A DNA stretch of 43,486 bases from IMG/VR virus record IMGVR_UViG_3300049489_000673, positions 1 through 43,486 of that record; one strand, 5' to 3'. This document shows positions 29,123 to 34,538 of the stretch, piece after piece (position 1 is the first letter of the stretch; each line of letters opens with the position of its first letter). This DNA comes from a virus. The translations under genes and the position numbers were made by a program. The notes under the pieces were generated by a model. That model was not told the origin of the DNA and made no database searches. It was given only the letters and a program-made list of their open reading frames with translations.

Positions 29123-29685
29123 GGATTGAACTTCCACGCATTGGCATTGTCGGCGTGCGCGGCCTTGAATCCTTCGTTGGCCTCGCGAACTAGCTTATCG
29201 CCAGGGTCCTCGGGAGTGGCGGCGGGGGATGTGATCTTCGCGGTCTGAATCTTGGGGAATGGGACGAACTCGATACAACTCAGCGAGTACTTGTTGATGT
29301 TTCCGTGCTCCAAGGACTCGGGGCCCTTGATCTCTTCGATGGTAAATTGCTTTACGCCAGCAGCCGCCAGTGCGGGGTGGCTGATGTCGTAGGCGATCTC
29401 TTTCGATCTGTCCTTGTCCCGGATCATGCCCTTCGGGAACTTGAAGAGTGACATCCACTCGGTTTCCCAAGTCTCATAGTCCTGAGGGATGAATCCGAGC
29501 GTCACCTCAATTTGCCATCGGGAGAGCTGGCGCCCGTTGTAGACAAGAAACGACCCCGCTATGCCTCTCCCCATCAGCTCATCGATCTTCGCCTTGCGGG
29601 TCAGCCCGACGATTCGGCAGATCCCGGGGAGCGGGCGGCCGCGCACGAAGACCGAATCCGCAGAGCCGTTGACGGGATCAAACAC
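29119..29685 (-). CDS. Baseplate/tail protein after the tape measure
   Basis: The 188-residue product starts at a GTG (29685) that overlaps the tape-measure stop: VFDPVNGSADSVFVRGRPLP. It has GICRIVGLTRKAKIDELMGR and YNGRQLSRWQIEVTLGFIPQ, and FKFPKGMIRDKDRSKEIAYD. Position between tape measure and hub matches Mu gp43-like or LysM-type linker proteins, but no LysM or gp43 motif was seen. The family is left open. Confidence 0.6.
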   Translation of the reverse strand: MFDPVNGSADSVFVRGRPLPGICRIVGLTRKAKIDELMGRGIAGSFLVYNGRQLSRWQIEVTLGFIPQDYETWETEWMSLFKFPKGMIRDKDRSKEIAYDISHPALAAAGVKQFTIEEIKGPESLEHGNINKYSLSCIEFVPFPKIQTAKITSPAATPEDPGDKLVREANEGFKAAHADNANAWKFNP

Positions 29686-31501
29686 GGGCGCCTCCCATCT
29701 CAAGTGCCACACCTTCGAGCGCTCGATACAGCTCATCCCTCACGGATGCCCCGATGCCTTGGGCCCCGGCGGTGACGTTGAGGTTGTGGATCGTGACCGA
29801 CCGCGAAGAGTTGTTCGTCGTGGCGGAGAACGCGCCTTGCGGCGGGTGAACCATGTCCTCGACTGCGCGTTGGGCCCGGGGAGATTCGTCGCCGACGCCT
29901 TGAGCGGTGCCCTTGCCAATGTTGCGCCCGAAGTCGGCGAAGACTTGAGAGGGCGAATGGATCCCCATCACGTCCTTGAACTTGTCGCGCATCGAAGCGG
30001 CGAGCCCGCCGATAGCGTCGACCGCTCCCGAGGCTGCCGACTTGATGCCCTCGACTAGGCCGTTGACCATCATCGTTCCGAGGTTGCCCCAGCCGAAGCG
30101 ACTGAGGGAGTCCCACGCTTCCGTGAGGGTATTCGCTAAGTTCTTCGCGGCGGTCCAAGCGGCGACAAGCGCCCCTCCCATGATGATCAGTGGAGCGGCG
30201 GTCATAGCAAAGCCGGTAGCCACAACCGCAAGCGCGCCGCCTACTCCGTACAGAACGTACTCAGTGACCTTGAGCGCGTCGTTCCAGTCGACCCAATCGC
30301 GCTTCACCCAATCGGGCATCATGCGACCGATGGCCGCGGATGCCTTGAGCCCGGCTGTCCCCATGTTGAGGATCGCAATCGTTGCGCCCTGGATCACTCG
30401 CTTGATTGCAAGTCCGCCTTGTTCGCCGTCCTCGAAGATGGGGCCGAAGATGGCCTGAAGGATCGAGCGCCAAGCGTCGCCCACGGCGGAGCCCTCGCGG
30501 AACATTGACAGGACGGTGTTCAGTCCGCGCAAGACGGGCTCAATGTTGAACGCCTTCCCGATGCCCATGATGTTCTCTTTGAACTTCATCCACTGGACAT
30601 CGAGTGAAAGCATCTGCTTTTGGACAATGCCCCCGAGCTGCCCGCGCACTCGGTCGGCGAGGCCCTTGACGGAGTGGCCCGCGAGGGCTGCGCCAGTGGC
30701 CCAGCCGGCGAAAGCCTGCGCCGCCTCCTCGCCCTGCGCCGACGCCTTGATTGCCATGGCGTCCAGGGTCTGCACAAGGTTGTCCCCGCGCAAGCCGGCC
30801 TTGTAGAGCTGCGTCGTGTAGCTCGCGACCTGATCGCGACTGATGGCACTGGACGCGCTCACGCGGTCAATGGCGGCCTGTAGCTCGCCCGCGTTGCCGG
30901 CGGCCACTCCCCACCATGATCGCATCTTCGTCATGCCTTCAAGTCGGAGTAGCTCTGAGCGGCGGGCGTCGGCTGACTTGACGATGAAGGCGCCGAGGGC
31001 GGCCACTGCCACGCCAATCGACGCAGCGAAGGCGTAGGCCGCGGCGGCTTCGGCGAGCAAGGCGGCACGTGATTCCTTGGTGAGCTTCATCGATGCCGCG
31101 CGCCCCTTGCCGATTGCCTCCTGCTCCTTACGCAGGTCGGCCTGATAGCGCTGCATAGCGGCCCCGCGTTCCTTGGCCTCCGCCATGGCCGCGTCCTTCG
31201 CCTTCTTCTGCGACTCCGCCTGTTCCTTGCGACGGTTGCGTACCTCGCGAAGCGTGACGCCCTCTTTCGCCATGGCGAGGTTGTGCGACTGGATCGACGC
31301 CTTCAGGGATTCGATCTGCCGCCTCTGCGCTGCTAGACCTTCCTTGCCCGACTTGCCGGCGGCCTGCCAAGCCTTCGCCAGATCGCGAGCCTTGGCCATC
31401 TCGGCGTTGAGCGCTTCAAGCTTGTCCGCCGCCTGCTCGGCAGACATGCCGGCGGAACTGGCGTCCAGGTCGATAACGAATGAAGCGCCGCCGTCAGCCA
31501 T
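29678..31501 (-). CDS. Tail tape measure protein
   Basis: The 607-residue product has an N-terminal coiled-coil (KLEALNAEMAKARDLAKAWQ to MAEAKERGAAMQRYQADLRK), two hydrophobic stretches (about 145-175 AEAAAAYAFAASIGVAVAAL, and about 410-445 VGGALAVVATGFAMTAAPLI) and the C-terminal DVMGIHSPSQVFADFGRNIG, a strong tape-measure signature ('GI.SPS.vf...G.....G...G'). At the usual 0.15 nm per residue it predicts a tail near 90 nm. It lies downstream of the chaperone frameshift site, separated by the gpG-like gene. Confidence 0.92.
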   Translation of the reverse strand: MADGGASFVIDLDASSAGMSAEQAADKLEALNAEMAKARDLAKAWQAAGKSGKEGLAAQRRQIESLKASIQSHNLAMAKEGVTLREVRNRRKEQAESQKKAKDAAMAEAKERGAAMQRYQADLRKEQEAIGKGRAASMKLTKESRAALLAEAAAAYAFAASIGVAVAALGAFIVKSADARRSELLRLEGMTKMRSWWGVAAGNAGELQAAIDRVSASSAISRDQVASYTTQLYKAGLRGDNLVQTLDAMAIKASAQGEEAAQAFAGWATGAALAGHSVKGLADRVRGQLGGIVQKQMLSLDVQWMKFKENIMGIGKAFNIEPVLRGLNTVLSMFREGSAVGDAWRSILQAIFGPIFEDGEQGGLAIKRVIQGATIAILNMGTAGLKASAAIGRMMPDWVKRDWVDWNDALKVTEYVLYGVGGALAVVATGFAMTAAPLIIMGGALVAAWTAAKNLANTLTEAWDSLSRFGWGNLGTMMVNGLVEGIKSAASGAVDAIGGLAASMRDKFKDVMGIHSPSQVFADFGRNIGKGTAQGVGDESPRAQRAVEDMVHPPQGAFSATTNNSSRSVTIHNLNVTAGAQGIGASVRDELYRALEGVALEMGGARV

Positions 31502-31505
31502 TGAT

Positions 31506-31970
31506 TTACTCTAGCCCGAGCACCTTCGCCAAGACACCACGCATGGCCTGGATCCACTTCTCTGGGATGCCCTTCTTCCCGTCGGGGATGATAGGGCGGC
31601 GCATCTTCGTTCCGCCCGCGTAGCCCTTCGCCCATCCAATGTGGTGGGCTACGTGATGCCCGGAAAGCTCGATCCGGATCTGGCTTCCGGTGGCGCTCAC
31701 TTCGGTGGCTCCGGGGGCATTGGCGAGTGGGCGCTTGCCTTCCTTGGTCAGCTCCCACGGGCGACCGTAGGCGTCTTGCCGCGACACTTCGGTCAGCACG
31801 AGTTGGTTCCCAACGGCTTCGGCGCAGTCGCTTGCAGCCGCTTCTGCGTCGCCCTCGAAGGACCGAAGGCGGGCGACCAGATCGCCCACCGCGGCCTCCG
31901 CAGCCGCCGACCCAAAGGCGGTTCCGTACACCATGGGCCGGCGGTCATTGCTCTTACGACGGGTTGCCAT
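31506..31970 (-). CDS. Tail completion/assembly protein (gpG/gp10-like)
   Basis: The 154-residue product has DAYGRPWELTKEGKRPLANA ('G.pW..L...g....') and a beta end (IRIELSGHHVAHHIGWAKGY, RRPIIPDGKKGIPEKWIQAM). This is the pattern of phage tail completion (virion morphogenesis, gpG-like) proteins. The ATG shares its A with the TGA of the chaperone frameshift product (TGATG). It lies between the chaperone and the tape measure, an uncommon but known spot. Confidence 0.65.
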   Translation of the reverse strand: MATRRKSNDRRPMVYGTAFGSAAAEAAVGDLVARLRSFEGDAEAAASDCAEAVGNQLVLTEVSRQDAYGRPWELTKEGKRPLANAPGATEVSATGSQIRIELSGHHVAHHIGWAKGYAGGTKMRRPIIPDGKKGIPEKWIQAMRGVLAKVLGLE

Positions 31971-32589
31971 CAGTCCGACTTCGTGAGGGCCATCCGGAGG
32001 ATCCGAAGATCCCTGAGGGCTTCAGTCAGTAGGATCGCCCCGGCGACTCGGGAGTGATACTCCGGGTCCTCATTGAGCCAGCCGGGGACGAGTAGATCCA
32101 TCAGGCACGTTGCGGCTTCCCGCTTCGACTCGTGGGCCCTGTCGAGGGCCCGGGTTATTTTCCCTCGTCGTCCTCCCGTGCCCGACCAGAGAGCTTCACC
32201 ACCAGATCGCCGGCTCCGGCAATGAGGGCCGGGTACAGCTCAAGGGCTCGGGTGAATTCCGCCGTCGACTCGGCACCCTTCGGGTAGAGGCAGACTGAGA
32301 CCAGTGAGAGCATGTCCTCACTAGTCTTGCTGTTCTTCGAGTCGAGAAACCGCATGTAGGAAGCTCGGGGCGGAGCCACCAGGACGAACCCAAACGGCCC
32401 GACCTTGATTGCTCCCGCTCGGCCCACGCCATGCTCGGCAATGGCCCTCGCTAGCTTCTCTTCGACCTCGGCGTCCCGGAGGATGTTCGCTACCTCTCGA
32501 TCCTCCGCGCCTGCTTGCTCGGCTTGCTCACGCTTCGCTTTGGCGGCCGCCAATTTCGCTAGCGCGGCCGCCTTCTTGTCCTCTGCCAT
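31970..32589 (-). CDS. Tail assembly chaperone, -1 frameshift fusion product (G-T)
   Basis: A -1 shift at GGGAAAA (32158-32164) avoids the TAA of the 144-residue chaperone and adds 62 residues: ITRALDRAHESKREAATCLM, then DLLVPGWLNEDPEYHSRVAG and a helical end ALRDLRILRMALTKSD, giving 206 residues. The extension is rich in helix-like charged sequence and uses the bases that would otherwise be a 185-bp gap. Phage tail chaperones usually come as a short form and a frameshifted long form made at a fixed ratio, binding the tape measure. The stop meets the next ATG as TGATG. Confidence 0.82.
32134..32164 (-). promoter_or_regulatory. Programmed -1 frameshift signal
   Basis: In the transcript: GGGAAAA slippery heptamer (read as G GGA AAA in the zero frame, followed by the TAA stop), a 6-base spacer TAACCC, then a perfect 7-bp hairpin GGGCCCTCGACAGGGCCC (loop CGAC). 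All parts of a classic slippery-site stimulator are present, with correct spacing, within the tail chaperone gene. Confidence 0.88.
32155..32589 (-). CDS. Tail assembly chaperone, short form (G)
   Basis: The 144-residue product starts with a charged coiled-coil (MAEDKKAAALAKLAAAKAKR) and has KVGPFGFVLVAPPRASYMRF and LYPKGAESTAEFTRALELYP. Phage G-type chaperones share this 'lysine-rich helix, then folded domain' plan and lie before the tape measure. It ends ...EDDEGK at a TAA immediately after the slippery site. A ribosome-binding site AAGGAAGG lies before the ATG. Confidence 0.82.
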   Translation of the reverse strand: MAEDKKAAALAKLAAAKAKREQAEQAGAEDREVANILRDAEVEEKLARAIAEHGVGRAGAIKVGPFGFVLVAPPRASYMRFLDSKNSKTSEDMLSLVSVCLYPKGAESTAEFTRALELYPALIAGAGDLVVKLSGRAREDDEGK

Positions 32590-32610: not shown

Positions 32611-33090
32611 TCAAGGCAGGTACGTTGACGAATCGAACAGCGTAGTCCCGTCTCGATAGATGTAAAGCGGCTTGAGCTTCAGCTCATCCTCAAGCGGGTC
32701 GGCGCCCTCGGAACGGCTCGCACTGTCAGCCGTGACGACGCAACTCAGCAGATTGACCGAGTGGGAGTCCAGGTCACTCTCCCCATAGAAGATGTCCACC
32801 TGGAACTCCACGCTCCCGTAGCTCCGGCCGTCAGCCGCAAGCGCGGCGAGTCGGTTGCGGAGGTGGGCCACCGCGTGAGTCTTGCCCTTGAGGTTGCTCT
32901 CATCGGTGGAGTACTTGCCAGCGCTCCGCCCGAGTGGGCCGTGATGGGAGCCGAGCCCGTAGCCTTCGACGCGCTCCCGCTTGTCCCCGTAGGTGATCTC
33001 GGTGAAGCCCGTGATGACCTCGCCGTCCACCGTGACGAGGATCGAGCCCCAGGAAAACAGGTTGCCGTTGACGCGAATCGGATCAGACAT
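32611..33090 (-). CDS. Tail tube protein
   Basis: The 159-residue product starts MSDPIRVNGNLFSWGSILVT and has VTVDGEVITGFTEITYGDKR, ERVEGYGLGSHHGPLGRSAG and SYGSVEFQVDIFYGESDLDS. The order of the 'iSwgsi.....G....g.tei.ygd...' segment and size fit myophage tube proteins (gpM/FII/XkdM-like). It is directly after the sheath gene, as expected. The beta-sandwich fold is inferred. Confidence 0.8.
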   Translation of the reverse strand: MSDPIRVNGNLFSWGSILVTVDGEVITGFTEITYGDKRERVEGYGLGSHHGPLGRSAGKYSTDESNLKGKTHAVAHLRNRLAALAADGRSYGSVEFQVDIFYGESDLDSHSVNLLSCVVTADSASRSEGADPLEDELKLKPLYIYRDGTTLFDSSTYLP

Positions 33091-33098
33091 GGATCACC

Positions 33099-34538
33099 TC
33101 AGACGGCCTGAAGAGCCGGGTTGACGAAGCCGACGGACGCATTGATCGCCTTGGGGTATGCCAGTGGCACAACGAAGACTTGGACGGTCAGGGGATCGCC
33201 TCCCAAGAGATCGTCGTCCCCGCTCACGATGCAGTAGGCGTCGCTGGCCTTGCCCTTGCCCGTGAGTCGACTGCGGAGCTTGCCGTTCAGGCCATCCTGG
33301 ATCCGCAGGCGGTCGGACTCCAGGATCCTGCCCGTAGTCTTGTTGACTCGGGTGGCCTTCGAGAGCCTGCGCAGGAGGAACAGCCGCGACTCCGTGAGGG
33401 CAATGTTCATCACGCGACGGTGCTGCAAGAATTGGAAGTCGGAGCCCGCCGGGGAGAGCAACCGGAAGTTGCCGACGTAGGTCCCGGGGAACCCGTCCCA
33501 GGTGCGCAGGGTGATGGCGCGCAGATCGTCCGCCCCGGGCTGCTCAGCCTCATCGTGAAAGAGGATGTTCCCATTCGCGTCCCGGATCTGAGTGCCGGGG
33601 AGGGGCCCGAGGTCAAGCTCGGCAGGGTCAATCTCCTCGGACTGCGACTGACCGAAGGGGGCGACGGAGTAGATTGCCGGGCGCTTGTAGACCCGCCCGG
33701 ACACGTCCGAAGTGAACCAGTGGTCGCCGAAGGAAACCCCTCCGTAGATCGACGACTTGGCGTTGAACTCGGAGCCGAAGGCGGTCTGATAGGTCGCATC
33801 CGACTCGCCGGAGTTGGCCATCCGGAAGTGGCCGCACCACCAGTGGTACTTGCCGGCCGTCGCCATGCTGGCGAGCTTTCCATCAACCACGTCGGACAAT
33901 GCCCCGGTGAGGTTGCCGAGAACCAGCACTCCGTCCCATGCGGTAGCGGTGGCCGCCAGTGCGTCGAGGGCAGCCCCCAGTGAGGTGGCATCGAAGGCGG
34001 GGGCAACCGTCGGGCAGGCCCAGGTGTCGCCTGCTACCAGCGTGCCAGCGCCGAGCGTGAAGCTCACGCCCGAGCTGGGGACAGTGAGAGTCGTTCCGGT
34101 GCCCTGAGTCTGAGGCGCCGAGGTGGTCCGCCCGCCGTCAAGCGAGTAGGTCCAGGTGATTCCGGCGACGCCGACAGTGCCGCCAGTGACCACCGTGATG
34201 ACCACCTCGTAGGCATCGAGAGGGGCAGCCCCGCCCGCCGCCGTCGGGACACACGTCCCGGTGATAGTCTTGGTCAGCGTGCCCACGGTGCCAGCCGTGG
34301 CCTGCGCAGCCTTGACGCAAACCACCGTCAGCCCGTAGCGATTGATCGCGCGGGCAGCGCCTTCGGTGAGCGGTCCCTGCCCGAAGGTGGACAGGACGGA
34401 TGACGCCCGCGTGAAGGCTTGAGGGGTGGCCGCAGTGCCGCTCTCGGAGCACGCAACGATCGCGAGGTTCCGAGTAGCGGGAGCCGTTGCCCCGAGTGCG
34501 TTGTCGACCTGAGTAATAGTGAGCCGGGGTAGAGTCAT
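33099..34538 (-). CDS. Contractile tail sheath protein
   Basis: The 479-residue product has NALGATAPATRNLAIVACSE at the N terminus and RAINRYGLTVVCVKA, a middle with IYGGVSFGDHWFTSDVSGRV, YSVAPFGQSQSEEIDPAEL, and a C-terminal QHRRVMNIALTESRLFLLRR, then FVVPLAYPKAINASVGFVNP. These match myophage sheath subunits (gpL/FI/DUF2586-like). The sheath contracts to drive the tube through the envelope. It precedes tube and chaperones in the usual order. Confidence 0.85.
   Translation of the reverse strand: MTLPRLTITQVDNALGATAPATRNLAIVACSESGTAATPQAFTRASSVLSTFGQGPLTEGAARAINRYGLTVVCVKAAQATAGTVGTLTKTITGTCVPTAAGGAAPLDAYEVVITVVTGGTVGVAGITWTYSLDGGRTTSAPQTQGTGTTLTVPSSGVSFTLGAGTLVAGDTWACPTVAPAFDATSLGAALDALAATATAWDGVLVLGNLTGALSDVVDGKLASMATAGKYHWWCGHFRMANSGESDATYQTAFGSEFNAKSSIYGGVSFGDHWFTSDVSGRVYKRPAIYSVAPFGQSQSEEIDPAELDLGPLPGTQIRDANGNILFHDEAEQPGADDLRAITLRTWDGFPGTYVGNFRLLSPAGSDFQFLQHRRVMNIALTESRLFLLRRLSKATRVNKTTGRILESDRLRIQDGLNGKLRSRLTGKGKASDAYCIVSGDDDLLGGDPLTVQVFVVPLAYPKAINASVGFVNPALQAV

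Follow-up and report, generated by a model that had tools for sequence, protein, structure and literature searches.

How does a phage translate an open frame of 62 codons that begins one base back from the stop of its predicted tail chaperone gene? The question is raised by IMG/VR virus record IMGVR_UViG_3300049489_000673, a metagenome-derived contig of 43.5 kb (43,486 nt) that was analyzed over its whole length and is referred to here as the window. A preliminary description of this DNA had proposed a -1 programmed frameshift in the tail chaperone. This is the best explanation that we find, and it is supported by conserved extensions in 36 of 36 records (the window and 35 relatives). We predict, with a probability of roughly 0.93, that a contractile-tail assembly chaperone is made in two forms from one mRNA by -1 programmed frameshifting.

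The window encodes a terminase, a portal, a head maturation protease, a major head protein, a DUF2586 sheath, a tape measure protein and a baseplate wedge. It is assigned to a contractile-tail phage based on this gene set, which includes the sheath, the tape measure and the baseplate wedge. The nearest cultured relatives by sheath (~30% identity) are Thermus phage Riverbug, Meiothermus phages MMP7 and MMP17, and Myxococcus phage Mx4. A search of genome contigs for a relative that could point to the host found none.

Genes are arranged in the order sheath, tube, chaperone, one extra gene and tape measure (Table 1), and the extra gene is found at this place only in the window. It encodes 154 aa (31506-31970, minus strand), lies between the chaperone extension and the tape measure, and has no Pfam or PHROG match. 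Homologues in ~30 related loci are located upstream of the tube gene, near the 5′ side of the sheath, and the gene appears to have moved in the window lineage. The sole PHROG match of the tube protein is to a "major head protein" family (phrog_9206, E=1.5e-7, 59 residues), a match that probably reflects a misleading name of the family or an N-terminal segment in common.

Table 1. Features of the predicted frameshift locus and its neighbors, in window coordinates
Feature	Coordinates	Strand	Remarks
Short-form chaperone ORF, 144 aa, "G-like"	32155..32589	-	zero frame; syntenic and homologous in 35 related records
Slippery heptamer G_GGA_AAA (GGGAAAA)	32158..32164	-	X_XXY_YYZ phase of zero frame
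Zero-frame stop TAA, touching heptamer	32155..32157	-	stop adjacent in 33/36 records
-1 frame extension, 62 aa, "T-like" domain	31970..32158	-	ATA to TGA; homologous in all relatives
Hairpin GGGCCCT-CGAC-AGGGCCC, 6-nt spacer	32134..32151	-	evaluated with coding-preserving null; no family conservation
Purine-rich GGGAGG, possible anti-SD contact 5′ of slip site	32172..32177	-	duplex -10.3 kcal/mol, z=-0.84
Tail tube protein (context)	32611..33090	-	after sheath; 38-57% identity in relatives
Tail sheath, DUF2586 family (context)	33099..34538	-	Pfam PF10758 E=1.5e-22; PHROG tail sheath
Tape measure protein, downstream (context)	29678..31501	-	PHROG tape measure E=2e-15

The last codons of the 144-aa ORF are GAC GAG GGA AAA TAA, and the window translation thus bears out the earlier remark that a TAA directly follows GGGAAAA. 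One base back, the extension frame reads ATA ACC CGG from 32158 and closes with a TGA at 31972-31970, in overlap with the start ATG of the following gene (31970; TGATG). The 62 additional residues therefore fill the space up to the next gene, as had been described. The predicted long product has 206 aa, with the junction ...DDEGK-ITRALD....

Relatives were gathered from IMG/VR by alignment of the tube protein, which gave 38 loci. Three with identical sites (L013, L025 and L044) were dropped, and the remaining 35 records and the window make up the set of 36; statistics on the slip site use 32 non-redundant sites. Single-sequence scans of IMG/VR with the chaperone and with the sheath gave no matches. 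Fusion partners of related chaperones had been suggested as the place to look for homologues of the extension, and a homologous -1 extension does follow the chaperone in all 35 relatives. It is 59-74 aa long across the 36 records, none of which lacks it or has an internal stop in it. The chaperone ORF in all 36 closes with a Lys codon next to the stop (33 records) or one codon earlier (L027, L028 and L042), and in all records except the window the next long ORF is the tape measure, within ~10 nt of the end of the extension. Extensions of relatives are 21-37% identical to that of the window, with K1, I2, A17, G41, A42 and R56 conserved. The extension has no Pfam or PHROG family (isolated weak single-member matches only); its predicted model is all-helical (pLDDT 86) and had no fold match.

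The -1 frame of the extension has a dN/dS of 0.04-0.16 in six informative close pairs of relatives; two near-identical pairs contained too few changes for a judgement. All of these pairs are from relatives, because the window forms the longest branch in the family tree, without a close relative to pair it with. The extension is under purifying selection where close pairs exist. As the record is a metagenome-derived contig, the broken frame might be put down to faulty sequencing or assembly, or to a dead gene, but all 36 records, which come from many samples, have this break at one and the same position and dN/dS of the extension in close pairs is low, and we give this explanation a negligible chance. 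The conservation of the -1 extension with low dN/dS in close pairs excludes both a sequencing error and a chance open frame.

The extension could also be a separate small protein, produced by termination-reinitiation at the stop (through the ATAA overlap) or from an internal start. The -1 frame ATA does overlap the stop, the junction of L019 has GTGA, and an SD-like purine-rich tract lies upstream, where it is not significant in the window (z=-0.84) and weak across the family (mean z -0.38, p=0.03). However, ATA is a very poor start, and ATGA, the usual coupling signal, is present in no record though it is one base change away. In the window, none of the 27 open -1 codons that precede the slip site is a start codon, and the first ATG of the extension is codon 20 (index 19), inside the conserved second helix. 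For this reason the extension would be invisible to a gene caller, as had been claimed for standard gene calling. Several extensions are without a usable start, and L028 has none at all, upstream or inside. Reinitiation also offers no reason for the enrichment of GGGAAA and A7 described below (18 vs 2.0), and we regard a separately initiated protein as quite improbable. Homologous extensions, purifying selection and the excess of heptamers (18/32 vs 2.0 expected) make both sequencing error and independent initiation unlikely.

Canonical slippery heptamers occur at 18 of the 32 non-redundant sites, compared with 2.0 expected by synonymous recoding with each locus's own codon use. The forms seen are GGGAAAA, GGGAAAG, AAAAAAA and AAAAAAG. 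The preliminary description had expected related phages to keep the heptamer and an extension frame free of stops; the second part holds throughout, whereas the exact GGGAAAA or GGGAAAG is found in some relatives only, and others have A7 or A_AAA. The slippery Lys codon is AAA at 30/32 sites (22% background). Within the window GGGAAAA itself is not rare (3 found, 2.1 expected), and at the window site alone a canonical heptamer has p=0.22 when the last residues are recoded synonymously, so the evidence from the heptamer comes from its conservation in relatives and not from the window copy. In a tree of tube and chaperone, which is poorly resolved at depth, the class of slip site requires at least five changes and stop adjacency at least three, with the Lys codon retained.

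At the remaining 14/32 sites AAA comes after GCA, TCA or GAA; just the Lys tetramer A_AAA is slippery there, and lysyl-tRNA alone would be predicted to re-pair well in the -1 frame. These relatives are L011, L014, L015, L016, L017, L020, L021, L024, L031, L033, L035, L036, L038 and L040. They have A_AAA and then TAA or TAG, yet the -1 extension is conserved. A_AAA alone, without stimulators, shifts little in E. coli (PMC4066793), and by itself would hardly account for efficient shifting in the tetramer-only relatives.

The long form might instead arise from polymerase slippage (transcriptional realignment), a possibility where relatives carry 7-9 A in a row and in Mx4, which has A8. The window and most relatives have just 4 or 5 consecutive A and then T, which makes slippage by the polymerase rather than the ribosome a very remote prospect.

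The slippery Lys codon touches the zero-frame stop in 33/36 records. This feature had been mentioned only in passing and is the most conserved part of the signal, whereas the upstream half of the heptamer varies. Of the 30 sites at which the -1 codon after the slip encodes Ile, 27 use ATA, versus 3.3% in surrounding genes (134/4100 Ile codons; Fisher p about 4e-36, with the true p larger owing to relatedness of the records). Since the records are far enough apart for a neutral ATA to drift, we take its retention to be non-neutral. The zero-frame stop is TAA or TAG at 30/32 sites versus 26% background (74% of other genes use TGA). The over-use of ATA and of TAA/TAG at the site therefore indicates that the zero distance from slip to stop is kept by selection. 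The preference for these RF1-read stops may be a by-product, because AAAA followed by TGA would put ATG in place of the conserved Ile codon. Adjacency of the stop does not differ significantly between tetramer and heptamer sites (14/14 vs 15/18).

Mean slip-to-stop distance is ~26 nt in annotated actinophages (PMC10885494), and the same source gives 36 nt for the set of Xu et al. According to PMC4373837 (citing Horsfield 1995), over-expressed release factor in bacteria competes with the shift at an engineered HIV-1 site bearing a stop there. An adjacent stop could promote the slip, as the ribosome waits, or cap it, as release factor competes, and the sequence is compatible with either. A tentative proposal, to which we give slightly under even odds, is that the zero-frame stop is itself part of the frameshift signal in this clade: an RF1-read stop in the A-site would let the P-site lysyl-tRNA slip on A_AAA, competition with release factor would set the short:long ratio, and the 5′ half of the heptamer would, like the hairpin, be an optional booster. 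If true, this would explain the 14/32 relatives with only A_AAA and then TAA/TAG.

The preliminary description had treated a stem beyond the heptamer as a core part of the signal. The stem is present in the window as described, with 7 bp (six G-C, one T-A) and a 4-nt loop after the 6-nt spacer TAACCC. Folding of the RNA near 32134-32164 gives a local 41-nt z of -2.8 (dinucleotide shuffle) and p=0.03-0.06 under a stricter coding-preserving null, which keeps the -1 peptide and local codon use; the stem is among the best of the family. Across the family, folding energy 3′ of the site is ordinary under the coding-preserving null (mean z -0.14, n=32, p=0.49). Strong uninterrupted stems at 2-11 nt spacing are mildly enriched, with 10 loci observed and 4.5 expected (mean z, p=0.03). 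We reject the hairpin as a conserved stimulator of the family, as its energy is no better than coding constraint gives. It is at most a local stimulator that may boost the shift in the window.

The identity of the chaperone is predicted from several lines of evidence. Its profile matches PDB 3fgx (E=0.0014), and the first PDB match of an AlphaFold model of the short form is the HK97 tail assembly chaperone (weak, E=0.32). Fold matches include several viral tail assembly chaperones, also weak, and the window protein matched none of the Pfam or PHROG families that carry the name tail assembly chaperone. A tail assembly chaperone is consistent with the gene order, with these weak matches of profile and fold, and with the division into two parts.

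We infer that the majority of ribosomes stay in the zero frame and end at TAA to give the 144-aa form, and that a minority slip one base back on G_GGA_AAA. In the slip, the Gly tRNA would re-pair with GGG and the Lys tRNA with AAA, so that the stop is skipped and ATA is read next. The product would be the 206-aa fusion with a helical 62-aa domain. In nearly all relatives the codon that enters the A-site next is the stop, and the slip therefore probably competes with termination by release factor. If the locus works as lambda gpG/gpGT does, the part common to both forms may coat the tape measure protein, the extension may recruit tube subunits, and the short:long ratio would matter for tail assembly.

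The locus would add a divergent contractile-tail phage group to the users of tail-chaperone frameshifting, one with two protein families that sequence databases hardly recognize and a long product that annotation tools would miss. Within the clade, sites with a GGG heptamer, with A7 or with the tetramer only form a natural series in which the abutting stop is nearly fixed, suited to direct tests of how the A-site stop and competition by release factor act on -1 frameshifting in bacteria.

Frameshifting in tail chaperones is a known mechanism in phages, and the window would be a very divergent new member. What is added here is that the clade varies the 5′ half of its heptamer and keeps the stop pressed to the slip site. 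Mx4, Riverbug and MMP7, which have related sheaths (~30% identity), show a comparable layout of chaperone and extension. In Mx4 (L006:9207-9433) the chaperone p57 ends just past an A8 run and p58 is the -1 extension; p58 is annotated as a separate hypothetical gene and the p57-p58 fusion is not annotated. Mx4 differs in that it would slip on A8. In Riverbug (L007:8114-8340) and MMP7 (L008:8091-8330) the extension occupies the +1 frame relative to the chaperone, and both phages have TTT_C shortly ahead of the zero-frame stop, which suggests a +1 (or -2) shift and not -1. The extension profile matches MMP7 (hhalign E=7e-5) better than Riverbug (E=0.001 over 15 columns).

Lambda gpG/gpGT and its counterparts in dsDNA tailed phages likewise have a two-ORF chaperone between the major tail protein and the tape measure, with a -1 shift and the extension in the -1 frame. 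The lambda slippery site is GGGAAAG. The window differs from the lambda type in a chaperone without detectable sequence similarity, a contractile tail and a stop that abuts the heptamer. In the lambda model there are many G and few GT, the T part binds the tail subunit, and the ribosomal shift in the tail chaperones of some phages does not depend on strong stimulators (PMC5009743). P2 E/E′ belongs to a contractile-tail phage, with the same gene position and a -1 shift. It differs in its slippery site, which is a T-run, and no sequence similarity to it was found. The P2-type frameshift has been noted with higher efficiency (PMC5009743). Rous sarcoma virus and barley yellow dwarf virus are eukaryotic viruses with unrelated genes. 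Their sites have strong downstream structures. They resemble this clade in having a stop just 3′ of the slippery heptamer (PMC4373837).
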